From Demequinaceae bacterium (GTDB lineage: Bacteria; Actinomycetota; Actinomycetes; Actinomycetales; Demequinaceae), in NCBI GenBank assembly GCA_016933155.1, contig JAFGBM010000006.1, forward strand, positions 1 to 64,000: 64,000 nucleotides of DNA. Reading direction: 5' to 3'. Below are positions 4,830 to 61,743 of this stretch, piece after piece (positions within the stretch are counted from its first letter, which is position 1; every line of letters begins with the position of its first letter). The translations under genes and the position numbers were made by a program. The notes beneath the pieces were generated by a model. It was not told the origin of the DNA, did no database searches, and was given only the letters and a program-made list of their open reading frames with translations.

Positions 4830-6932
4830 GTGGCGCAGGAAGTGCTCACAGACCTGAGCAAGGTCCGAAACATCGGGATCATGGCTCATATCGACGCGGG
4901 CAAGACCACGGCGACCGAGCGAATCCTCTACTACACGGGGATGAACTACAAGATCGGCGAGGTCCACGACGGCGCCGCGACCACCGACTGGATGGAGCAG
5001 GAGCAGGAGCGGGGCATCACCATCACCTCCGCCGCGGTTACATGCTTCTGGAACAAGCACCAGGTCAACATCATCGACACCCCCGGCCACGTCGACTTCA
5101 CGGTCGAGGTCGAGCGGTCGCTGCGCGTTCTCGACGGAGCGGTCGCGGTGTTCGACGGCAAGGAGGGCGTCGAGCCCCAGTCGGAGACGGTGTGGCGCCA
5201 GGCGGACAAGTACAACGTCCCCCGCATCTGCTTCGTCAACAAGATGGACAAACTCGGGGCCGACTTCTACTACACCGTCCAGACCATCGTCGACAGGCTC
5301 AAGGCGAAGCCGCTCGTCATCCAGCTGCCGATCGGCGCGGAAAGCGACTTCGTCGGGGTCATCGACCTCGTCGAGATGCGGGCGCTGGTATGGCACGGAG
5401 AGACCGAGCTCGGGGCCAAGTACGACATCGAGGACATCCCGGCCGACATGCGGGCAAAGGCCGATGAGTATCGGGCGCAGCTGCTCGAGGCCGTCGCCGA
5501 GAGCGACGAGCACCTCCTCGAGAAGCACTTCAGCGACGAGGAACTGACGGTGGCGGAGATCAAGGCCGCCATCCGGAAGATCACGGTGACCGGTGAGGCC
5601 TACCCGGTCCTGTGCGGCTCGGCATTCAAGAACAAGGGGGTCCAGCCGATGCTGGACGCCGTCGTCGACTACCTTCCGTCCCCGCTCGACGTCCCGGCGA
5701 TCGTCGGCCACGTCCTGGGACACGATGACAAGCCGGCAGAACGTCACTCCGACGCGAAGGAGCCGTTCTCGGCGCTTGCCTTCAAGATCGTCGCCCACCC
5801 GTTCTTCGGCAAGCTCACCTACATCCGGGTGTACTCCGGGCATCTCGATTCCGGGTCCGAGATCCTCAACGCGACCAAGGACAAGAAGGAGCGCATCGGG
5901 AAGATCTTCCAGATGCACGCCAACAAGGAGAATCCCGTCGACAGCCTGACGGCCGGCCACATCTATGCGGTCATCGGCCTCAAGGACACGACGACGGGGG
6001 ACACCCTGTGCGACAAGGCCTCCGCCATCGTCCTCGAATCCATGACCTTCCCCGAGCCGGTCCTGCATGTGGCCGTCGAACCCAAGACCAAGGGCGACCA
6101 GGAGAAGCTCGGGACCGCGATCCAGCGGCTCGCCGATGAGGACCCGACGTTCCGGGTCAAGCAGGACCACGACACGGGGCAGACCATCCTGTCCGGGATG
6201 GGCGAACTCCACCTCGATATCCTCGTCGACCGCATGCGCCGCGAGTTCAAGGTCGAGGCGAACGTCGGCAAGCCCCAGGTGGCCTACCGAGAGACGATCA
6301 AGTCCACGGTCGAGAAGGTCGAGTACACCCACAAGAAGCAGACGGGTGGCTCGGGCCAGTTCGCCAAGGTCCAGATCACGCTCGAACCGCTGCCCATCGA
6401 AGGCGAGGTGCATTACGAATTCGTGAGCGCCGTGACCGGGGGGCGTATCCCGAGGGAGTTCATCGCGCCCGTCGACGCCGGAATCCAGTCCGCGATGGAG
6501 CTCGGCGTTCTCGCCGGGTACCCCATGGTCGGGATCAAGGCGACCCTGCTCGACGGCCAGTACCACGAGGTTGACTCGAGCGAAATGGCCTTCAAGATTG
6601 CAGGCTCGATGGTGTTCAAGGAGGCGGCCCGCAAGGCCAATCCCGTTCTCCTCGAGCCGATCATGGCCGTCGAGGTGCGCACGCCCGAGGAGTACATGGG
6701 CGACGTCATCGGCGACCTCAACTCGCGTCGCGGCCAGATCCGCCACATGGGGGAATCCCACGGCGTGAAAATCATCGACTCCCTCGTCCCGTTGTCTGAG
6801 ATGTTCGGGTACGTGGGCGACCTCAGGTCAAGGACCCAGGGTCGCGCCGTGTACTCCATGCAGTTCAGCAACTACGCCGAGGTGCCTCGGACCATCTCCG
6901 AGGAGATCATTGCCAAGACCCGGGGCGAGTAG
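4830..6932 (+). CDS. fusA: Elongation factor G
   Basis: GTPase that drives ribosomal translocation and, with ribosome recycling factor, subunit splitting; 700 aa, full length. The G-domain motifs are present: AHIDAGKTT (P-loop), DTPGHVDF (G3) and NKMD (G4). The GTG start at 4830 has an upstream AAGGGG. It sits between rpsG and tuf as in other str operons. No second fusA copy is seen in the window. Confidence 0.98.
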
Positions 6933-7029: not shown

Positions 7030-8220
7030 ATGGCTAAGGCCAAGTTCGAGCGGACCAAGCCGCACGTGAACATCGGCACCATCGGCCACGTCGACCACGG
7101 CAAAACCACGCTGACGGCGGCGATCTCGAAGGTGCTCCACGACAAGTTCCCGGACATCAACCCCTACACGCCGTTCGACGAGATCGACAAGGCGCCGGAG
7201 GAGAAAGAGCGCGGTATCACCATCAACATCGCGCACATCGAGTACCAGACCGAGAAGCGGCACTACGCCCACGTCGATGCCCCTGGTCACGCTGACTACA
7301 TCAAGAACATGATCACCGGAGCCGCGCAGATGGATGGCGCGATCCTCGTGGTCGCGGCGACCGATGGCGCGATGGCGCAGACCCGTGAGCACGTCCTTCT
7401 CGCGAAGCAGGTGGGTGTCCCCTACCTCCTCGTCGCCCTCAACAAGGCCGACGCGGTCGACGACGAGGAGATCCTCGAGCTCGTCGAGGTCGAGGTTCGC
7501 GACCTTCTCAACGCCCAGGGCTTCGACGGCGACCACGCCCCCGTGGTCCGGGTGTCGGCGCTCAAGGCCCTCGACGGTGACGCCAAGTGGGTCGCCTCCA
7601 TCGAGGAGCTCCTTGCTGCCGTCGACGAGAACGTGCCGGAGCCGGTGCGCGACCTCGACAAGCCCTTCCTCATGCCCATTGAGGACGTCTTCACCATCAC
7701 CGGGCGCGGCACCGTCGTGACCGGTCGTGTGGAGCGTGGGAAGCTCAAGATCAACTCCGAGGTGGAGATCATCGGTATCCGCGCGCCGCAGAAGACGGTG
7801 TGCACCGGTATCGAGACCTTCCACAAGTCCATGGACGAGGCGCAGGCCGGCGACAACACCGGGCTCCTCCTCCGTGGCACTAAGCGCGAGGACGTCGAGC
7901 GTGGCCAGGTTGTCGTTCAGCCGGGCACGACCACCCCTCACACGCAGTTCGAGGCCAAGGTCTACATCCTCAACAAGGACGAGGGTGGCCGCCACAACCC
8001 CTTCTACTCGAACTACCGTCCGCAGTTCTATATCCGCACCACGGACGTCACCGGCGTCATCACGCTGCCCGAGGGCACCGAGATGGTCATGCCGGGCGAC
8101 ACTACCGAGATGACGGTCGAGCTGATTCAGCCCATCGCCCTCGAACAGGGCCAGGGTTTCGCGATCCGTGAAGGCGGCCGCACCGTCGGCTCCGGCACGG
8201 TCACCAAGATCATCAAGTAA
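7030..8220 (+). CDS. tuf: Elongation factor Tu
   Basis: GTPase that delivers aminoacyl-tRNA to the ribosome; 396 aa, typical for actinobacteria. Visible motifs are GHVDHGKTT near residue 18, DAPGHADY and NKAD. The start ATG at 7030 follows a strong CAGGAGG ribosome-binding site at 7016-7022. The 97-base gap after fusA could hold an extra promoter (TTGATA at 6944), but no good -10 is placed, so it is not called. A strong hairpin terminator follows the stop codon. Confidence 0.99.
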
Positions 8221-8227
8221 CGAGAGG

Positions 8228-8254
8228 CGGAGCCCGGCACACTGCCGGGCTCCG
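8228..8254 (+). terminator. Terminator of the str operon
   Basis: A perfect 12-bp stem (8228-8239 with 8243-8254) with a CAC loop begins seven bases after the tuf stop. There is no T-run, as is common for high-GC actinobacterial terminators. It separates tuf from the S10 operon. Confidence 0.8.
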
Positions 8255-8275
8255 CAACCTCGCGTCGACCCCGAG

Positions 8276-8305
8276 TTGGCGTTAGGCTCAGGAATCTGGC
8301 AAGAT
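8276..8305 (+). promoter_or_regulatory. Candidate promoter of the S10 operon
   Basis: TTGGCG (8276-8281) and CAAGAT (8300-8305) with an 18-base spacer lie just after the tuf terminator and about 140 bases before rpsJ. The -10 is weak, so the exact placement is uncertain, but some promoter is required here. Confidence 0.4.
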
Positions 8306-8358
8306 GTCGGGGTTGCCCTCAGGGCAGCCGATGTCGCCCCGATCCCAACCGACTATTC

Positions 8359-8407
8359 GGGCGCGGGTGTGTCACAAGAGGCGACACGCCCGAGCGCGGG
8401 GGTCGGA
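8359..8407 (+). promoter_or_regulatory. rpsJ leader element shared with rpsL
   Basis: The 27-base element at 8381-8407 matches 3884-3910 at 26 of 27 positions. In this copy an upstream segment (GGGCG at 8359-8363 and TGTGTC at 8368-8373) is complementary to the left half of the element (GACACGCCC), so two mutually exclusive foldings are possible. This arrangement suits attenuation or protein-responsive control of the ribosomal operon. The regulatory role is inferred. Confidence 0.55.
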
Positions 8408-8447
8408 CAGGCATCATATCGAGAAGAGTTTGGAGAGGCAGGAAGCC

Positions 8448-8756
8448 ATGGCGGGACAGAAGATCCGCATCAGGCTGAAGAGCTATGACCACGAGGTCAT
8501 CGACTCCTCGGCCCGCAAGATCGTTGAGACGGTCACGCGCGCCGGTGCCACGGTTGTCGGCCCCGTGCCGCTTCCGACGGAGAAAAACGTGTTCTGTGTG
8601 ATCCGCTCTCCTCACAAGTACAAGGACAGCCGCGAGCAGTTCGAGATGCGCACCCATAAGCGCCTGATCGACATCGTCGACCCGACCCCCAAGGCCGTCG
8701 ACTCCCTCATGCGCCTGGACCTTCCTGCAGACGTCAACATCGAGATCAAGCTCTAG
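8448..8756 (+). CDS. rpsJ: 30S ribosomal protein S10
   Basis: Small-subunit head protein, also a transcription antitermination factor (NusE) in well-studied bacteria; 102 aa. The ATG at 8448 ([11 protein letters not shown]) is chosen because it matches the family N-terminus and follows GAGAGGCAGGAAG; upstream in-frame starts would run through the structured leader. It opens the S10 operon, with rplC 20 bases downstream. Confidence 0.98.
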
Positions 8757-53092: not shown

Positions 53093-53745
53093 ACGAGGCC
53101 ATCCGTGTGGTCATCGTCGACGACCACGACGTCATCCGGGTCGGGGTCAAGCAGTCGCTGGGCGAGGGTGTCGAGGTCGTGGGGGAGGGGCGGGACGTCG
53201 AAAGCGCCATCGCCGCCATTGCCGAGTCGAAGCCCGAGGTCGTCATCCTCGACGTCCACCTGCCGGGGGGCATGGGTGGAGGGGCGCTGGATGTGCTGGA
53301 CGCCTGCCTCAAGAAGCCCGACCCTCCGACGTTCCTCGCCCTGTCGGTGTCCGACGCGGCGGAGGACGTGGTCGCGGTCGTGCGGGCGGGCGCGCGCGGG
53401 TACGTTACCAAGTCGATTTCCGGGCCCGAGCTGACCGACGCGGTCAAACGGGTGGCGCTCGGGGACGCGGTCTTCTCGCCGAGGCTCGCGGGGTTCGTGC
53501 TCGACGCGTTCGGGGCGGCGGCCGGGGACATCGCCGTGGCCGACGAGGACCTCGACAAGCTGACGGGCCGGGAGCAGGAGGTCATGCGGTTGATCGCTCG
53601 GGGCTATTCGTATCGGGAGGTCGCGGAGAAGCTCTTCATTTCGATCAAGACGGTCGAGACGCACGTGAGCGCTGTCTTGCGGAAACTTCAGCTCTCGAGC
53701 CGGCACGAACTGGCCCACTGGGCGGCGCAGCGCCGGATCGTCTAG
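53089..53745 (+). CDS. Response regulator, NarL/LuxR family
   Basis: 218 aa. The receiver domain has the acidic pair in VDDHDVIRVG, the phosphorylation site Asp55 (VVILDVHLPG) and the conserved Lys in GYVTKSIS. The LuxR-type helix-turn-helix follows (LTGREQEVMRLIARG then SIKTVETHVSAVLRKL). It is coupled to the kinase by an ATGA overlap. The likely target is the divergent PspC/LiaF-like operon, by analogy with LiaR. Confidence 0.93.
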   Translation: MNEAIRVVIVDDHDVIRVGVKQSLGEGVEVVGEGRDVESAIAAIAESKPEVVILDVHLPGGMGGGALDVLDACLKKPDPPTFLALSVSDAAEDVVAVVRAGARGYVTKSISGPELTDAVKRVALGDAVFSPRLAGFVLDAFGAAAGDIAVADEDLDKLTGREQEVMRLIARGYSYREVAEKLFISIKTVETHVSAVLRKLQLSSRHELAHWAAQRRIV

Positions 53746-53852
53746 GCAACATCGACAACACAGGTTGTTCTGCGATGGGATGATGATCACGTGCGATCAC
53801 TCAGTCGGCGTCTGAGCCTTTCTGCGTTGGGTTGTCGGAGGGAGGTTGGTTG

Positions 53853-54986
53853 GTGCTCCAAATCACCCACCTCACATTGAGGAACTGGAAAAACTTCGGC
53901 AAGGTAGATGTTGATTTGCAGCCACGAACGTTTCTTGTTGGTCCGAATGCGGTAGGTAAGTCGAACTTCCTGGACTCGATTCGCTTTCTTCACGATCTTG
54001 CGAGTGTCGGAGGCGGTCTTCAGGCAGCAGTCGCGGCAAGAGGAAGCGTCGGCCGGTTGCGAAGTCTTGTTGCGCGGAAATACCCCGACGTTGTGATTGA
54101 AGTCAGCATCGAGGATAGAGAACCCGGAAGATCCTGGCGCTATCGCCTTGCTTTCGCTGGATCGGAAACCGCGAGGATCAAAGAGGAGGAAGTCTGGGAA
54201 GGAAATCGAAAAGTCCTTTCGAGACCGGATAACAAGGACGCTCAAGATCCTGAGCGTCTCGCGCAGACTGCACTTGAGCAGGTTACGTTCAACAGAGAGT
54301 TCAGAGAAATCGCTGAGTTTCTTGCCTCGGTGAGCTATCTACATTTGGTACCTCAACTCATCCGTGAGCCAGATCGTAGTATTGCTCACCGGAACGATCC
54401 CTATGGAGGAGACTTCCTGGATCGAGTTGCGCGAGTGAACAAGAGGACTCGAGAAGCAAGGCTCCGAAGAATAGAAAAGGCGCTCAGAGCTGCGGTCCCC
54501 CAGTTGTCAGAGCTTCGACTTGAGCAAGACACAAGGGGGGCTTTCCATCTCGAGGGCAGATACCAGAACTGGAGGCCGTACGGAGCGAGGCAGGACGAGA
54601 CTGTCTTCAGTGATGGGACGCTTAGATTGATTGGGTTGCTGTGGGCTATTGCTGATGGAGAGGCTCCGCTCCTCCTGGAGGAACCCGAGTTATCTCTTCA
54701 TCCAGATGTTGTCCGCCAGATCCCGTTGATGTTGACACGAGTCACAAGAAGTCCAGCGGGTCAGCGCCAGGTGATTTTGAGTACGCATTCGATGGATTTG
54801 ATCGATGATGAGGGAATTGGTCTTGATGAAGTGCTCTTGCTGCAACCCGAAGATGGGGGGACATCCGTCAAACCGATGTCCCAGGATTCTGAGGCTGGGT
54901 GGCTGTTACAAGGGGGTTCTAGAGTGTCCGAAGTCGTTCGGCCTCGGACTCGTCCTGACTCACCTGAGCAGATTGCACTTTTCTAG
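53853..54986 (+). CDS. ABC/AAA-type ATPase of a putative defence system
   Basis: 377 aa from GTG 53853, seven bases after GGAGGGAGG; the in-frame TTG 53832 lies before that site. It is an OLD/RecF-like ATPase (AAA_21/AAA_15 group): N-terminal ITHLTLRNWKNFGKVDVDLQ, Walker A GPNAVGKSN (30-38), ABC signature-like FSDGTLRLIGLLW (252-264), Walker B with D-loop PLLLEEPELSLHP (272-284) and switch histidine in ILSTHS (318-323). The TOPRIM domain of OLD proteins is absent but encoded by the next gene. GC content is visibly lower (45% over 54301-54360, against 70% over 52501-52560), suggesting acquisition. Proposed role: sensor and motor of an anti-phage pair. Confidence 0.88.
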   Translation: MLQITHLTLRNWKNFGKVDVDLQPRTFLVGPNAVGKSNFLDSIRFLHDLASVGGGLQAAVAARGSVGRLRSLVARKYPDVVIEVSIEDREPGRSWRYRLAFAGSETARIKEEEVWEGNRKVLSRPDNKDAQDPERLAQTALEQVTFNREFREIAEFLASVSYLHLVPQLIREPDRSIAHRNDPYGGDFLDRVARVNKRTREARLRRIEKALRAAVPQLSELRLEQDTRGAFHLEGRYQNWRPYGARQDETVFSDGTLRLIGLLWAIADGEAPLLLEEPELSLHPDVVRQIPLMLTRVTRSPAGQRQVILSTHSMDLIDDEGIGLDEVLLLQPEDGGTSVKPMSQDSEAGWLLQGGSRVSEVVRPRTRPDSPEQIALF

Positions 54987-54989
54987 ACA

Positions 54990-55604
54990 ATGGATGCCAA
55001 CGGTGTCACCGTCGCTTTTGAGGGGGAAAGCGATCGGGGCATGGTGAGCCGACTTGTCCAAGAGTTGGGTATCAAGGTGGGTATCTCCTATTGCTGTGAT
55101 GGGCAGCCGAATCTATTCAGGAGGCTTCCAGGATTCAACTGCGCTGCGAGCAGATCAGTTTGGTTTGTATTCACGGATCTGGATGCAGAGTCATGTGCGC
55201 CCGATTTGGTATCCAGAGTGCTGCCGAGTCCATCAAACGGGATGGCCCTGCGTGTGGCTGTAAGAGCCACCGAGGCCTGGCTTCTTGCTGACAGGGAGAA
55301 GATGGCGGAGTGGCTAGGTGTTCGTCTCGGGTTGGTGCCAAGAGAACCGGACAGTCTAGACAACCCGAAACTTAGACTCGTCGATCTCGCCAGACAATCC
55401 CGACACCGATCACTTCAAAGTCAGCTTGTGCCATCGAGGAACAGCGGTCGCCCTGTTGGACCTGGGTACACGACGGAAATCAACCTATTTGCCCAAAAGC
55501 GCTGGAGACCCAACGTGGCCGCTCTCGTTTCTCCAAGCTTGGATCGGGCAATACGGAGCATGCGTAAGAAACTTGAGGACAGCGGAACGGAACTGTCGAA
55601 CTAG
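54990..55604 (+). CDS. TOPRIM/DUF4276-like protein, probable effector
   Basis: 204 aa, starting three bases after the ATPase gene. TOPRIM-type motifs are visible: the acidic FEGESD (residues 10-15) after the first strand and FTDLDAES (61-68) after the third. The block ATEAWLLADREKMAEWLGV (93 onward) resembles the E-x-W-L-L-A-D motif of DUF4276 proteins. No signal peptide or membrane segment is present. In related two-gene systems (OLD-like, PARIS, Abi-type) the TOPRIM partner is a nuclease released or activated by the ATPase. That activity is inferred here. Low GC like its partner. Confidence 0.85.
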   Translation: MDANGVTVAFEGESDRGMVSRLVQELGIKVGISYCCDGQPNLFRRLPGFNCAASRSVWFVFTDLDAESCAPDLVSRVLPSPSNGMALRVAVRATEAWLLADREKMAEWLGVRLGLVPREPDSLDNPKLRLVDLARQSRHRSLQSQLVPSRNSGRPVGPGYTTEINLFAQKRWRPNVAALVSPSLDRAIRSMRKKLEDSGTELSN

Positions 55605-55629
55605 CGTAGTCGACTTGTAGTCGAAGGCT

Positions 55630-55658
55630 CCTTGAAAAGACCCCTAATCCCTTCAAGG
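55630..55658 (+). terminator. Possible terminator after the ATPase-TOPRIM pair
   Basis: CCTTGAA (55630-55636) can pair with TTCAAGG (55652-55658) around a 15-base loop, 26 bases after the stop codon. There is no T-run and the stem is AT-rich, so it is tentative. Confidence 0.35.
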
Positions 55659-55729
55659 GCGAGACGTGCCCTGAGACTTGGCGATGAGCCAAGTGATTCA
55701 AATGTGGCTCTTCGCAGTCGAGAGTGTAT

Positions 55730-55993
55730 CTAGGGTGAGCGTGGCGTTGGCTGGGTAGGGGTTGAGGTCTTCCGACCTGACTCGTGCTCGGCGATCATGA
55801 CGTGTGTCTTGAACACGTCGATGCGGCCCTGGCGGCCCGTCGACGCCCGTGTCGGCCACTGCTCGAACGTCGCGACTTGGAGTGGCTCGACCCCGAAGAT
55901 GTCGAAGAAGTCGTTCAACCACGACTGCGCTGCAGCGTTCTCCCGCTCCTCGCCTTACCAATCAGAGACGAGATTGCGGGCGCGTGACCGCAT
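55730..55993 (-). pseudogene. 5' remnant of a type IIG (MmeI-like) methyltransferase gene
   Basis: From ATG 55993 the minus frame reads MRSRARNLVSDW, then a TAA stop, then continues in frame with GEERENAAAQSWLNDFFDIF, VEPLQVATFEQWPTR and GRQGRIDVFKTHVMIAEHES. This matches the N-terminal domain of MmeI-type fused methyltransferase/endonucleases, whose normal size is above 800 residues. Similarity stops near 55790. The internal stop and the loss of everything after about 70 residues mark a dead fragment. It lies directly beyond the ATPase-TOPRIM pair, tail to tail with it, pointing to a defence hot spot. Confidence 0.7.
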
Positions 55994-56006
55994 CTCAGTG
56001 AGGCTC

Positions 56007-56064
56007 GGGGGCTTGAAGCCGGGGTCGGCTGAGGCGCGAGATTCCTCGCGGGTTGTCTGGATTC
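56007..56064. repeat. Degenerate direct repeat, copy A
   Basis: GGGGCTT-n-AAGCC...CTGGATTC. It aligns with 57581-57649 at about 48 of 60 positions plus a ten-base gap, in the same orientation. It lies just upstream of the methyltransferase remnant and left of the DLH-WYL gene pair. The rest of this 163-base gap (55994-56156) shows nothing else I can name. Confidence 0.6.
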
Positions 56065-56156
56065 ACAGTTGCAGAAGGCGCCGACTTGTGTCGGGAGGAG
56101 TGTCGCAATGTCATCGGCGGAGGCACGGGTCGCGCGGGCTCTGGTCGATTGATCGC

Positions 56157-56732
56157 CTACGCGAGCCCCGCCACGAACTCACGAACGCGCTGTGTCATCA
56201 GTGCTGCGGAATCCGCGTCGTAGTCCTCATACCCGTCGAACCCGAACAGGTGCGCGCTGCCCGGATACGTGAATCGCTCACACGCCCCCGCCGGAGCGAG
56301 GTTGGCGAGCGCGTCGACCGCGGTTGCATCCACCCACGAGTCAGCCTCGGCCCAGTGGATCTGCGCCCTGAGGGCGCCCGGCCAGGCCTCGATGCCGAGC
56401 ATCGCCGGCGGCAGGCACGCGTGCATCAGCACCGCCCCGAGCGCCCCCGGACGCATGAAGGCGAGCGCCTGCGCCGACGCCGCCCCCAGCGAGAACCCCA
56501 GGTAGACCACGTCGAGCGGCAGGTTCTCGACGGCAGCCGCTCCGCGGCGGGACAGCTCGGGGATGCCGACGGCGTCGCGCTTGGCAATGCCGTCCGCGAG
56601 GATGGAGAACACCTCGCCGTCGTAGAGATCGGGCGTGGTGACGTCGTGGCCGTCGGCGCGGAGCACGTCGGCGAAGTCGAGGACCTGCTGCGTGAGGCCG
56701 AGTCCCGAGTGGAAGAGAACACAGTGAGTCAT
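56157..56732 (-). CDS. Dienelactone-hydrolase-family alpha/beta hydrolase
   Basis: 191 aa. The nucleophile elbow is GFSLG (79-83), with serine where classical dienelactone hydrolase has cysteine. Further landmarks are the N-terminal VLFHSGLGLTQQVLDFADVL and the C-terminal FTYPGSAHLFGFDGYEDY carrying the catalytic histidine. The substrate is unknown. It is divergent from a WYL regulator with an 82-base gap and is probably its target. GGAAAGG precedes the ATG. Confidence 0.88.
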   Translation of the reverse strand: MTHCVLFHSGLGLTQQVLDFADVLRADGHDVTTPDLYDGEVFSILADGIAKRDAVGIPELSRRGAAAVENLPLDVVYLGFSLGAASAQALAFMRPGALGAVLMHACLPPAMLGIEAWPGALRAQIHWAEADSWVDATAVDALANLAPAGACERFTYPGSAHLFGFDGYEDYDADSAALMTQRVREFVAGLA

Positions 56733-56778
56733 GATGGACCTTTCCGGTGAGTTGGTAGCCTCACGCTAGGGCACCCAG

Positions 56779-56814
56779 TTGACACCGTATTGACACCGTT
56801 TATAGACTCCTCCA
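56779..56814 (+). promoter_or_regulatory. Consensus promoter and direct-repeat operator of the WYL gene
   Basis: TTGACA (56779-56784) and TAGACT (56803-56808) have an 18-base spacer, and ATG 56815 follows after six bases, so the mRNA should be leaderless. TTGACACCGT is repeated exactly at 56779-56788 and 56790-56799, an 11-base period (one helical turn) overlapping the -35 and spacer: a likely operator for the WYL protein, controlling both divergent genes. Confidence 0.7.
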
Positions 56815-57522
56815 ATGAACCGAAGCGAGCGCCTGTTCGCGATCGCCGAGGACCTGCGCCACGCCCACGGACGCCAGCGCACCACGTCGCAGCTGGCCGA
56901 GGCGTTCGAAGTGTCGCAGCGCACGATCAAGCGCGACATGGCCGCGCTGTACGCGTCGGGAGTGCCGCTCGTGGCGGTCGAGGGCCGCGGCGGCGGATAC
57001 CAGATGCTTAGGGAGACGCACCTCTCCCCCGTGCCGCTGACGGCGGGCGAAGCCGCGGCCGTGGTGATCGCGCTCGCGTCCCAGCCGCAGATGCCGTACA
57101 ACACCGAGGGGCGGTCGGCTCTTGCCAAGATGTATGCCGCCATGTCGCCCGACCAGCGCGCCATGGCCGACGACGCCGCGAGCCGCGTATGGATGCGCAC
57201 CGACGCGTCGTCCAAACGCCCTCCCAACGCCGCCGTGCTCGACGACGCGCTGCGACGCAAGGTCGCGGTCACAATCGCCTACGCCGACGCGGACGGCAAC
57301 GAGTCCCGCAGGCTCATCGAACCCATGGCGTTCGCGCGCACGGGAGGCCACTGGTATTGCCTCGCGTGGTGTCACCTGCGTGGCGACGGCCGATGGTTCC
57401 GCCTGGACCGCGTGCGCCGGGCTTGGCCCACCACCACCCCTTGCGCGCCGCGGGATCTCACCGAGGTTTTCGGCGAGCCGCCACCCGACGCGATGCCGGC
57501 CACGCGCGTGCTGAGCACCTGA
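56815..57522 (+). CDS. WYL-domain transcriptional regulator (YafY-type)
   Basis: 235 aa. An N-terminal HTH (TTSQLAEAFEVSQRTIKRDM, about 24-43) is followed by GRGGGYQM and a WYL domain (about 135-215) in which the namesake residues read HWYCLAWCHLRGDGRWFRLDR. WYL domains sense small molecules or nucleotides; here the divergent hydrolase suggests regulation of a detoxifying or catabolic step. WYL regulators also occur with defence genes, but the distance and separate repeats make that link uncertain. Confidence 0.9.
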   Translation: MNRSERLFAIAEDLRHAHGRQRTTSQLAEAFEVSQRTIKRDMAALYASGVPLVAVEGRGGGYQMLRETHLSPVPLTAGEAAAVVIALASQPQMPYNTEGRSALAKMYAAMSPDQRAMADDAASRVWMRTDASSKRPPNAAVLDDALRRKVAVTIAYADADGNESRRLIEPMAFARTGGHWYCLAWCHLRGDGRWFRLDRVRRAWPTTTPCAPRDLTEVFGEPPPDAMPATRVLST

Positions 57523-57580
57523 GTCGGTCTCGGGGCGGGCCCCACTTGAGCGGCGCAAACCTTAGCGTCCTAAGCGTCGC

Positions 57581-57649
57581 GGGGCTTCAAGCCCGGGATC
57601 GCCTGGGGTATGGGACTCCTCTTGGGGTGATCGCGGGTTGCCTGGATTC
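57581..57649. repeat. Degenerate direct repeat, copy B
   Basis: Matches copy A (56007-56064), with a ten-base insertion (57621-57630). Together the copies bracket the hydrolase and WYL genes. A small inverted repeat (CTTAG-N4-CTAAG, 57561-57574) lies next to it. The remaining 57650-57729 stretch holds no feature I can name. Confidence 0.6.
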
Positions 57650-57729
57650 GCCGTAGCGGATGGGGGAGACGGGGGAAGGTTCCTCTTTCCACAGGGCCCT
57701 ACGGGTGTCCGACATCACTGGTAGACAAG

Positions 57730-57759
57730 TTGACATGAGCGGAGGAGCCTCGGTACGGT
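57730..57759 (+). promoter_or_regulatory. Promoter upstream of the NYN gene
   Basis: TTGACA (57730-57735) and TACGGT (57754-57759) with an 18-base spacer; start expected near 57766. Confidence 0.65.
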
Positions 57760-57771
57760 CGTCTCATAACT

Positions 57772-57805
57772 CCCTGCCGTCCTCCGGGACTGGCAGGGCT
57801 TTTTT
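57772..57805 (+). terminator. Intrinsic terminator/attenuator in front of the NYN gene
   Basis: CCCTGCC and GTCC (57772-57782) pair with GGAC and GGCAGGG (57787-57798, one bulged T) around a TCCG loop, followed by six Ts. It is the only classical T-run terminator in the window. It lies between the promoter and the start codon, 12 bases before the gene, so a transcript from the promoter would be about 40 nt unless the terminator is read through. Confidence 0.75.
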
Positions 57806-57817
57806 CCCGGACATGTG

Positions 57818-58414
57818 ATGGCCGGCAAGACGCGCAAGGTTGCGCTTGTCGTCGACTACCAGAACATCCACCTGGTGGGTCACGGGCTGTTCTACGGTGA
57901 CGGTCGGCCCAAACACGAGACGCTCATTGAACCGGGGCGCTTCGCGGATCGAGTCCTGGAACGGCGGGCTGCCGACTGGCGCGAAGATCCGCCGCCCGAT
58001 GACGTGCTGCACAGCGTGTACGTCTACCGCGGCCAGCCAAGCAACCGGGTCGATCCCGTCGCCTACGCGCGCAACCAGGCACAGGCGGCACAGTGGACGC
58101 GTGACAACCGCGTAATCGTCCAGCATCGTCCCCTGACCTATCGGGACGATGTGGTGCACGAGAAGGGCATCGACGTGCTCGTGGCCCTCAAGTTCGTGGA
58201 GCTCGCGATGAGCTCGGTCTACGACGTGGTGATCCTATGCAGCCACGACAGCGACCTGGACCCCGCCGTCGAGCACGCCATCCGTCGAGGAAGCTGCAAG
58301 ATCGAGACTGCAGGCTGGATGGGGGCATATGTGCCCAAAGGCGGAAAGAGCCTGTGGCACACGGGCTTGGACGCTGATGACTTCGACGCCTGTCGGGATC
58401 CGCGCCAGTACTAG
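57818..58414 (+). CDS. NYN-domain (PIN-like) putative RNase
   Basis: 198 aa from ATG 57818; a GTG at 57815 is directly before it and no ribosome-binding site is seen. The acidic residues of the NYN/LabA-like fold are visible: Asp13 in LVVDYQNIH, Asp119 in EKGIDVLVAL, and Asp144/146/148 in CSHDSDLDPAV. Such proteins are metal-dependent nucleases or RNA-binding factors. A terminator sits in the leader, suggesting conditional expression. The gene stands alone. Confidence 0.87.
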   Translation: MAGKTRKVALVVDYQNIHLVGHGLFYGDGRPKHETLIEPGRFADRVLERRAADWREDPPPDDVLHSVYVYRGQPSNRVDPVAYARNQAQAAQWTRDNRVIVQHRPLTYRDDVVHEKGIDVLVALKFVELAMSSVYDVVILCSHDSDLDPAVEHAIRRGSCKIETAGWMGAYVPKGGKSLWHTGLDADDFDACRDPRQY

Positions 58415-58441
58415 TCTTCTGGTACCGGGGTTGGTTCGAAT

Positions 58442-59113
58442 GTGGCAAGGTGGGGAACCGTGGATATCGGCGTGCTGACCGTCGTCGCAGCCAGTCTTGT
58501 TGCGATGTCTGTGGTCGCCTGGTACCGGGTGATCGCCCGTCACGACGAGACCGAGGGGCGCGGCTTTCGCGTCGGGGTCGCGGGTATGCTTTCCGTCCTG
58601 GCGTTCATCGCCGGGTATTTCGAGGTCTCTCACCATCTCCGCCAGCAGCTCGCCACCGAGGCGCTCGGAGTCCTGTCCGACGTCGACGGGATCAGCGCCG
58701 ACTGCGAGCGACTCACCGAGGGCCTTCTCAACCTCAGCCAGTACCAGGGCTACGTCTACTTCGATGGAACCAACGTCGCCCACCTCAGACGGCAGGTCTG
58801 CCACAACCTGTGGGACTACGCCCACGGTGGCCAGGCGAACCCCACCGAGGATCAGATCCTCGCGGTGCACGTCGTGGGGCACGAGGCCATGCACATCAAC
58901 GGCATCCGCACGGAGTCGGTCGCCGAGTGCACGGCCGTGCAACTCAACCACCTCATCGCCGAGGAGCTCGGGGCGACACCGGAGGAGGCCCGGGAATTGC
59001 AGCGGCGATACTTCGAGGATCTCTACCCGCGCCAGCGCAGCAACTACATCTCGAGCGAGTGCCGCGAGGGGGGCGACCTCGACATCTTTCCCGACCGGAC
59101 CGAGTTCCCCTAG
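58442..59113 (+). CDS. Membrane-anchored protein with HExxH metalloprotease-like motif
   Basis: 223 aa from GTG 58442; GTG 58460 (MDIGVLTVV) with AAGGTGGGG upstream is an alternative. Two membrane segments (about 8-30 and 43-60) precede a soluble domain. HEAMHINGIRTE (147-158) contains HExxH, followed by ESVAECTAVQ, so His147, Glu148, His151 and an acidic residue could form a zinc site. The pattern resembles the metzincin core HExxHxxGxxH with Thr in the third-histidine position. No known family is assigned; catalytic activity is unproven. Confidence 0.78.
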   Translation: MARWGTVDIGVLTVVAASLVAMSVVAWYRVIARHDETEGRGFRVGVAGMLSVLAFIAGYFEVSHHLRQQLATEALGVLSDVDGISADCERLTEGLLNLSQYQGYVYFDGTNVAHLRRQVCHNLWDYAHGGQANPTEDQILAVHVVGHEAMHINGIRTESVAECTAVQLNHLIAEELGATPEEARELQRRYFEDLYPRQRSNYISSECREGGDLDIFPDRTEFP

Positions 59114-59115
59114 CG

Positions 59116-59142
59116 CTGGGGCCGGATACGACAAGGCCCCGG
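59116..59142 (+). terminator. Terminator after the HExxH gene
   Basis: CTGGGGCC (59116-59123) pairs with GGCCCCGG (59135-59142) around an 11-base loop, three bases after the stop. No T-run. The remaining gap to 59310 is GT-rich, with two DnaA-box-like sequences (59222-59230 and 59250-59258, each 8 of 9 to consensus). Confidence 0.55.
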
Positions 59143-59310
59143 GGCCCGTGGCCGCGGTGGGGCTGACGGATTGGGTGTGAGGCGGGGGTTCAGGGGGGTG
59201 GGGGGTTGTGGTGTCGGGCTGATGTCCACAGGTTGGGGTGGTCGCACGCCTATCCACAAATACGGACATTCTGGATATTCATGTCAGGGGGTTGTGGTTG
59301 GGTGGGTGGT

Positions 59311-60639
59311 ATGAACCTCAGTACTCGATCGTTGCGCTTGGCCGCTGTGGCCGTGTGTGCGCGGGAGGGTATCGACGTTGCGGGGCTTCCGGCCCCGGAG
59401 TTGCTTGACCTGTCGGCTGATGTGGCTCGGCTGAGGCGGGATGCCGATGTGCTGATGGCGCAGGTCGCCGCTGAGATCGATCGCCGTTCTGCAGGGGTTG
59501 GTGTGGGGGCGGGGTTGGCGTCTCGTCAGGGGTTCCGTACTGCTGGGGAGTTGGTGGCTCAGGCGACGGGGGGCACGATGGCGGAGGCGAAGAGGCTCAT
59601 GGCCACCGGGGGGCTTCTCGTTGAGGTTGACGACGACGCTGCAAGGGAGGCGGCCCTCCCCGAGCCTTCTCCATTGGCGCGGTTCCGTGTCGGTCTTGCG
59701 GCTGCGGTGCGGGAGGGGCAGATCGGAATTGACGCTGCGGCCCTGTTCACGTCGGCTTTGGCGGTTGTTCCCGATAGCGAGCGGACGGGTCGGTTGTTTT
59801 CGAAGGCGTTGGCCCAAGCCCCGGGGTTGCCGTTGGTGAAGGTTCGCCGGTTGGTGTGGCAGGCGCAGGCGTTTGCTGACCCCGTGGCGTGGGGGGATCG
59901 GGAGGAACGCCAGCATGAGGCTCGTTCTCTCATTGTTCGGGACGACACGGATGGCATGGTGACGGTGACGGCTCGGCTTGCCCCGTTGGCGGCCGCTCCG
60001 GTGAAGGCGGTTCTGGATGCTGGCCTCAGGTGGGCCTTGAAGGCCCGTCGGGATGATCCGAGTTTCGATACGAGAACACCGTGGCAGATCAAGGCCGATA
60101 TCCTCACCGACCTGTGTCGGCATGCCCTGGATTGCACGCAAGTGACCAGTGGGGTGAAGACCACGGTTGTGGTGCGGATGACCCTAGCGGATCTCGAATC
60201 CGGGTGTGGAGTGGGGGAGATCGACGGTATGGCCCAACCGGTGACGGTCGGGGCACTCCGTCAGGCTGCAGCCGATGCTGAAATCATTCCAGTTGTCCTC
60301 GGCGGCAAGTCCGAGGTCCTCGACTGGGGCAGAGCCCGCCGATTGTTCACCCCGGTCCAGCGATTAGCCCTGGTTGAACGCGACGGCGGATGCGCCTGGT
60401 GCAATGCCCCCCCATCCTGGTGCGAAGCGCACCATATCCGTTGGTGGGAACGAGACACCGGACCGACCGACCTCGACAACGGAGTGTTGATGTGTGCCCG
60501 ATGCCACCACCGGATCCACCGAGACGGATGGGACATCGACATCAAGGACCACGACATACGGTTCATCCCACCTGCATCCATCGACCCGAATCGCACCCCC
60601 CGCATCGGCGGCCGACAACACTACAACCTCGCAGCCTGA
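59311..60639 (+). CDS. HNH endonuclease of the DUF222/13E12 repeat family
   Basis: 442 aa from ATG 59311 (MNLSTRSLRLAAVAV); an upstream in-frame ATG at 59281 is possible. The DUF222 region fills about residues 20-330 (ARLRRDADVLMAQVAAEIDR; TVTARLAPLAAAPVKAVLDA). The C-terminal HNH nuclease is complete: CAWCNAPPSWCEAHHIRWW, then DLDNGVLMCARCHHRIHRDGW with zinc-cysteine pairs. The family is multicopy in many actinobacteria; its role (recombination, mobile element or defence) is unsettled. No mobile-element ends were found around it. Confidence 0.88.
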   Translation: MNLSTRSLRLAAVAVCAREGIDVAGLPAPELLDLSADVARLRRDADVLMAQVAAEIDRRSAGVGVGAGLASRQGFRTAGELVAQATGGTMAEAKRLMATGGLLVEVDDDAAREAALPEPSPLARFRVGLAAAVREGQIGIDAAALFTSALAVVPDSERTGRLFSKALAQAPGLPLVKVRRLVWQAQAFADPVAWGDREERQHEARSLIVRDDTDGMVTVTARLAPLAAAPVKAVLDAGLRWALKARRDDPSFDTRTPWQIKADILTDLCRHALDCTQVTSGVKTTVVVRMTLADLESGCGVGEIDGMAQPVTVGALRQAAADAEIIPVVLGGKSEVLDWGRARRLFTPVQRLALVERDGGCAWCNAPPSWCEAHHIRWWERDTGPTDLDNGVLMCARCHHRIHRDGWDIDIKDHDIRFIPPASIDPNRTPRIGGRQHYNLAA

Positions 60640-60654
60640 ACACCACCCAGCGGC

Positions 60655-61743
60655 TTAGGCAGCTTTGGGTCCGCTCACGTGGTTCCGCCCGGCACTCTTC
60701 GAGCGGTAGAGGGCTTCGTCGGCCCTCCGCAGAAGGTCCCCGGGCGTGACCTTGCTGTCTTCCGTGGAGGCGACCCCGACGCTGATCGTGAGTGGTTTAT
60801 TCGACCAGGACGCCCTCTGGATCGTCCGCCGAAACCTTTCCCCCATGACCATCGCCCCCCTCAGGCTGGTTCCAGGGAGGACGATGACGAACTCCTCCCC
60901 GCCGTAGCGGGCGAGAAAGTCCTGAGCACGGAGGTCGGACACCAGGAGGGACGCCACAGAGATGAGGGCATTGTCTCCCTCGATGTGACCGAACCGATCG
61001 TTGTATTCCTTGAAATGGTCCAGGTCGACCATGGCGATCGAGAACCCGCCCGGATTCCTCTGGGCCCGAGCGAACTCGGCTTCAAGACGCTCCTCGAGGG
61101 CTCGCCGATTCCCCACGCCGGTCAAGGGATCCGTCCGCGACTGAGCCTTGAGATCCAGTTCGCTCTCCTTGAGGACCCTTTGGGCCTCCTCCAGGGCCTC
61201 CATCCGGGCGTCCTGGTCGAGGATCATCCGCTCCAACTCGGTCACACCGCGCCGGAGCTCCATGTGGTCGACGATCTGACGCGAAAGGATCCTGAGCGCC
61301 TCAAGCTGGTCGGGGGTGACGTCTCTCGGCTGCCGGTCGAGGACGCAGACGGTTCCCACGGCATCCCCCGCCGGTGTCACTAGAGGGGCCCCGGCGTAGA
61401 AGCGGATGCTGGGATCCGATGTCACGAGGGGATTGTCCCGGAAGCGCGGGTCGAGCGTGGCATCACGGACGACCATGACCTCCTCGGGCTTGACGATGGC
61501 GTGGGCGCAGAAGGCGATATCGCGGGGGGTTTCATCCTGCTCGATCCCGATCTTGGCCTTGAACCATTGGCGATCCTCGTCCACGAGGCTCAACTGGGCG
61601 ACGGGGCAGCCGAAGATGGCCGAGGCGACGGCCAGGAAGTCGTCGTAGACCTGCTCGGGGAGGGTGTCCAGGATCCCGTAGTCGCGGAGCGCCTGAAGAC
61701 GACGCGTCTCATTCGCGGGGAGGGGAAAAGAGGAACTGCCCAT
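60655..61743 (-). CDS. GAF-GGDEF diguanylate cyclase (soluble)
   Basis: 362 aa from ATG 61743 (MGSSSFPLPANETRR); an upstream in-frame ATG at 61800 is possible. A GAF domain (about 10-165; LSLVDEDRQWFKAKIG, FCAHAIVKPEEV, YAGAPLVTPAGDAVGTVCVL) is joined by a coiled linker to a GGDEF domain with RYGGEEF and DLDHFKEYNDRFGH. RAQD five residues before GGEEF is an intact inhibitory site. No membrane segments. The GAF sequence resembles the N-terminal type that binds small ligands. It is divergent from pcrA. Confidence 0.88.
   Translation of the reverse strand: MGSSSFPLPANETRRLQALRDYGILDTLPEQVYDDFLAVASAIFGCPVAQLSLVDEDRQWFKAKIGIEQDETPRDIAFCAHAIVKPEEVMVVRDATLDPRFRDNPLVTSDPSIRFYAGAPLVTPAGDAVGTVCVLDRQPRDVTPDQLEALRILSRQIVDHMELRRGVTELERMILDQDARMEALEEAQRVLKESELDLKAQSRTDPLTGVGNRRALEERLEAEFARAQRNPGGFSIAMVDLDHFKEYNDRFGHIEGDNALISVASLLVSDLRAQDFLARYGGEEFVIVLPGTSLRGAMVMGERFRRTIQRASWSNKPLTISVGVASTEDSKVTPGDLLRRADEALYRSKSAGRNHVSGPKAA

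Follow-up and report, generated by a model that had tools for sequence, protein, structure and literature searches.

A truncated, stop-interrupted MmeI-type restriction-methylation gene adjoining a HEC-01 candidate defence pair in a Demequinaceae genome

Introduction

The nuclease domain of MmeI accounts for ~155 of the 919 residues of the enzyme, and its catalytic residues are D70, E80 and K82, a change of any one of which abolishes cleavage (PMC4833311). HEC-01 is the Hma-embedded candidate defence system 1 of PADLOC; candidates of the Hma-embedded kind were identified in a "guilt-by-embedding" screen, and the paper, which names HEC-06, describes tested antiviral activity for several of them (PMC12988326). 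The 64-kb stretch of a Demequinaceae contig analysed here (the window) carries what is left of an MmeI-like gene immediately beside a HEC-01 gene pair. We describe the remnant, the pair and the inserted block that holds them both, and we weigh how the gene came to be truncated.

Results

The remnant overlaps a short minus-strand frame, and the two are delimited as follows.

55760-56011, minus strand: MmeI-type (IIG/IIL) restriction-methylation gene remnant, identified by Pfam, PADLOC and tblastn with intact homologues; the sole MmeI match in the genome
55733-55993, minus strand: frame of the first-pass annotation, with ATG at 55993, TAA after 12 residues and TAG at 55730-55732

Read from its ATG, the minus frame encodes MRSRARNLVSDW (12 residues), is halted by TAA and resumes as GEERENAAAQSW...AEHES... 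until the TAG; the part lying 3' of the in-frame TAA, which closes at 55730, is GEERENAAAQSWLNDFFDIFGVEPLQVATFEQWPTRASTGRQGRIDVFKTHVMIAEHESGRK. The MmeI homology starts at 56011, six codons upstream of the ATG, and ends at ~55760-55775, so that ~82-84 N-terminal residues of the PD-(D/E)XK nuclease domain are represented and the final ~10-14 codons of the 55733-55993 frame are without MmeI similarity. Judged by eye, the homology may possibly extend past 55760 through a frameshift, in the frame 'RVRSEDLNPY...'.

The first-pass annotation, made from the DNA letters and their open reading frames, had read the minus frame from 55993 as a truncated MmeI-type N-terminal domain with a stop after residue 12, to be checked by a translated search for MmeI-family similarity, and both the domain and its truncation are borne out. 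With X placed at the stop, the translation matches the Pfam MmeI_N profile (PF20464, positions 3-72 of 181) at 31.2 bits and E 3.2e-7, above the curated cut-off of 27, which places the remnant in the MmeI family by its N-terminal nuclease profile; the PADLOC REase_MTase_IIG model (5.9e-11) and the solved MmeI chain 5hr4 (6e-5) match it as well. In tblastn, residues 2-84 of an intact, 909-aa homologue from a Pseudomonas alcaligenes plasmid align with 56011-55760 at 42% identity (E 4e-12), the only significant place for this protein in the whole window, and the remnant is colinear with it from residue 2 to residue 84 and nothing beyond. A Frondihabitans plasmid homologue matches the local region at E 2e-14, E values of the intact homologues against the remnant range from 4e-13 to 2e-14, and the DNA of the Frondihabitans MmeI-type locus matches the remnant at 72% over 124 bp. 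This closest plasmid homologue, from Frondihabitans sucicola (L084 5938-8741), may itself be frameshifted: its 926-aa open frame terminates in one reading frame, and the annotated MmeI-type C-terminal CDS (8076-8741) lies in another. No close relatives of the remnant were found in GTDB contigs, searched with short back-translated peptides, or in phages.

The remnant retains the catalytic D and E, and in the alignment the lysine position is occupied by glutamate, leaving the D...EXK nuclease motif incomplete. It agrees at 16 (64%) of the 25 positions conserved among 11 intact homologues, a measure on which the intact members match one another at 73-100%. The frame is broken by the TAA, and no further piece supplies, within a single open frame, the helical spacer, gamma-class N6-adenine methyltransferase, target-recognition and C-terminal domains. 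With intact homologues as queries the missing 3' part was found neither in the window nor in the whole 99.8%-complete genome, and genome-wide searches with the MmeI_N profile and with a full-length homologue detected no other MmeI piece. Given that the nuclease domain makes up only ~155/919 residues, ~90% of the protein is missing. The in-frame stop, the replaced lysine, the end of the homology at the motif and the lack of another MmeI piece in the genome together indicate that the gene is dead. The remnant is real and is an ordinary pseudogene fragment; on the evidence of its sequence it is neither a phase-variable gene nor a split enzyme, and it is predicted to make no restriction or methylation enzyme.

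Immediately to the left of the remnant lie two genes that form the pair described in the first-pass annotation as ATPase-TOPRIM.

53832-54986, plus strand: HEC-01A ATPase gene, intact (PADLOC PDLC04180, 1.3e-148, profile 1-379 of 382; Pfam AAA_21, 2.4e-34)
54990-55604, plus strand: HEC-01B gene, intact, partner of HEC-01A (PADLOC PDLC04194, 3.1e-56, profile 1-196 of 204)

The assignment to HEC-01 follows from the adjacency of an A and a B gene that cover most of both PADLOC models. The PDLC04180 match begins at residue 9 of the 53832 frame, and the GTG at 53853 is probably the true start of HEC-01A. HEC-01B has no Pfam match, and its fold prediction, with a pLDDT of 34, did not give a usable model; neither supports the TOPRIM label that the first-pass annotation had given to this protein. 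The pair at 53832-55604 is the only one among 47 family genomes at the cut-off used (E 1e-25 in the HEC-01A search of 46 family genomes). Close relatives of HEC-01A were sought in order to define the edge of a HEC-01 cassette. At strict cut-offs neither viral contigs nor plasmids nor ~394 genomes from the class yielded any, and the single match obtained elsewhere, weak and partial, came from a Cyclobacteriaceae MAG.

Both the remnant and the pair belong to a larger block.

53746-60654, no strand assigned: inserted block between the response-regulator and GGDEF genes, whose stop codons are 36 bp apart in the sister genome G001

G001, the only same-genus genome available, shares the flanking order GuaA, PspC-like, histidine kinase, response regulator, GGDEF and UvrD, and its convergent regulator and GGDEF genes, with so short an interval between them, constitute an empty site. 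The block is therefore an insertion at this position, assuming no coincident loss. Besides HEC-01AB and the MmeI remnant it contains, to the right of the latter, a dienelactone-hydrolase-like gene, a WYL regulator, an NYN protein, an unknown protein and a DUF222-HNH gene. The right-hand boundary of the block is occupied by the DUF222-HNH gene (59206-60639), of which the genome has several other paralogues and fragments, 72-81% identical, one copy beginning at a contig end. No tRNA was found near the insertion site and, among the repeats reported for 53600-60800, no clean direct repeats flank the 6.9-kb block, so there is no pointer to a specific mobility mechanism. Imperfect direct repeats of ~75 bp (56004-56078 and 57577-57663) flank the hydrolase and WYL genes with a score of 38, compared with at most 35 in 500 shuffles, and were judged too weak to build on.

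The interval was also retrieved from 16 further family genomes. After the regulator come GGDEF, DEAD-box helicase or housekeeping-type genes in these relatives, and nine of those interval proteins, scanned with PADLOC, gave generic helicase matches only. HEC-01 or a close MmeI was found in 0 of 46 family genomes. Four other family genomes carry more distant MmeI-type N-termini, detected with MmeI_N, at other loci; two of these four matches look broken, one being a 258-aa frame in G042 and the other showing a frame change at 5732-5768 in G043. At first pass the locus had looked like a place of defence-gene exchange, with an intact gene to be looked for at the same position in related genomes. 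No genome found has an intact MmeI gene there, the site is empty in G001, the 16 relatives have neither HEC-01 nor MmeI in the interval, and different defence genes do not recur at this position in several relatives; these genome comparisons lend no support to recurrent exchange here.

The HEC-01 genes have a GC of 0.53-0.55 and a GC3 of 0.53-0.57, and the remnant has a GC of 0.64 and a GC3 of 0.82. Like the remnant, the genes that follow it, at GC3 0.70-0.89, lie near the range of the host, in which GuaA has a GC3 of 0.89. GC climbs from ~0.52-0.57 to ~0.66 at 55660-55780, where the MmeI homology ends. The lower GC3 of HEC-01 and the shift in composition at the end of the homology fit a later arrival of HEC-01 that truncated the MmeI gene.

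Discussion

We consider it very probable that the remnant is the 5' portion of what was once an MmeI-like gene in an acquired block, truncated most likely by HEC-01 and subsequently decayed; counted against this explanation are that an intact ancestor was not seen at this position and that the remnant is short (~80 codons). We infer HEC-01 to be the truncating agent, and the order of events likewise. An MmeI-like single-chain gene, pointing left from the hydrolase gene, would have arrived in the acquired block, and the low-GC HEC-01 pair would then, by the most likely route, have inserted at or replaced it, with ~90% of the gene lost from its 3' side. The surviving stub would thereafter have gained the in-frame stop and missense changes. 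The first-pass view that one gene was lost as another was gained is thus plausible from the junction and the composition, and its implied order of events stays conditional.

Chance similarity in high-GC non-coding DNA might be considered, the match comprising only ~80 residues with one in-frame stop, but significant matches were obtained independently with three libraries and with two intact homologues, in colinear order from the start-codon region onwards; these make it exceedingly improbable, and it was rejected. Nor do we give much credence to the 62-aa frame after the stop (TTG at 55918) as a functional small protein derived from the N-terminus of the nuclease domain. This frame is indeed open from 55918 to 55730, yet it would be missing half of the 155-residue nuclease domain, with neither the catalytic lysine nor any of the methyltransferase, no similar stand-alone protein was seen, and such a role is very unlikely.

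Less certain is that HEC-01 directly took the place of the MmeI-like gene. The stub and HEC-01 may have come in on a single mobile fragment that already carried them joined, in which case defence genes were not exchanged at this site. Both lie inside the one 6.9-kb block that is absent from G001 and no relative has the block without HEC-01, and we regard joint import as a serious possibility, if short of a probable one; it sits poorly with how sharply HEC-01 differs in composition from the remainder of the block, the change falling at the end of the MmeI homology. It is itself a tentative reading, to which we give somewhat less than an even chance, that the remnant records how, inside one acquired island, HEC-01 directly replaced a restriction-modification gene. 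Were direct replacement correct, the remnant would be a fossil record of defence turnover, resolved to the single gene.

Loss and gain of restriction-modification and defence genes are widely described, and this locus provides one well-resolved case of the decay of a restriction-modification gene beside a candidate defence system. Its main value lies in correct annotation: the genome is without an MmeI-type enzyme and has a HEC-01 pair that is absent from the other family genomes searched.

Compared with the MmeI family, the remnant possesses the N-terminal ~82 residues of the PD-(D/E)XK domain, including the catalytic D and E, and is 42-45% identical to intact homologues, but it is interrupted by a stop, its catalytic K is replaced and the methyltransferase, target-recognition and C-terminal domains are missing. 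The 53832-55604 pair, in turn, shows no striking difference from the candidate defence system HEC-01 and resembles it in having the A and B genes adjacent, on one strand and with near-full coverage of the models.
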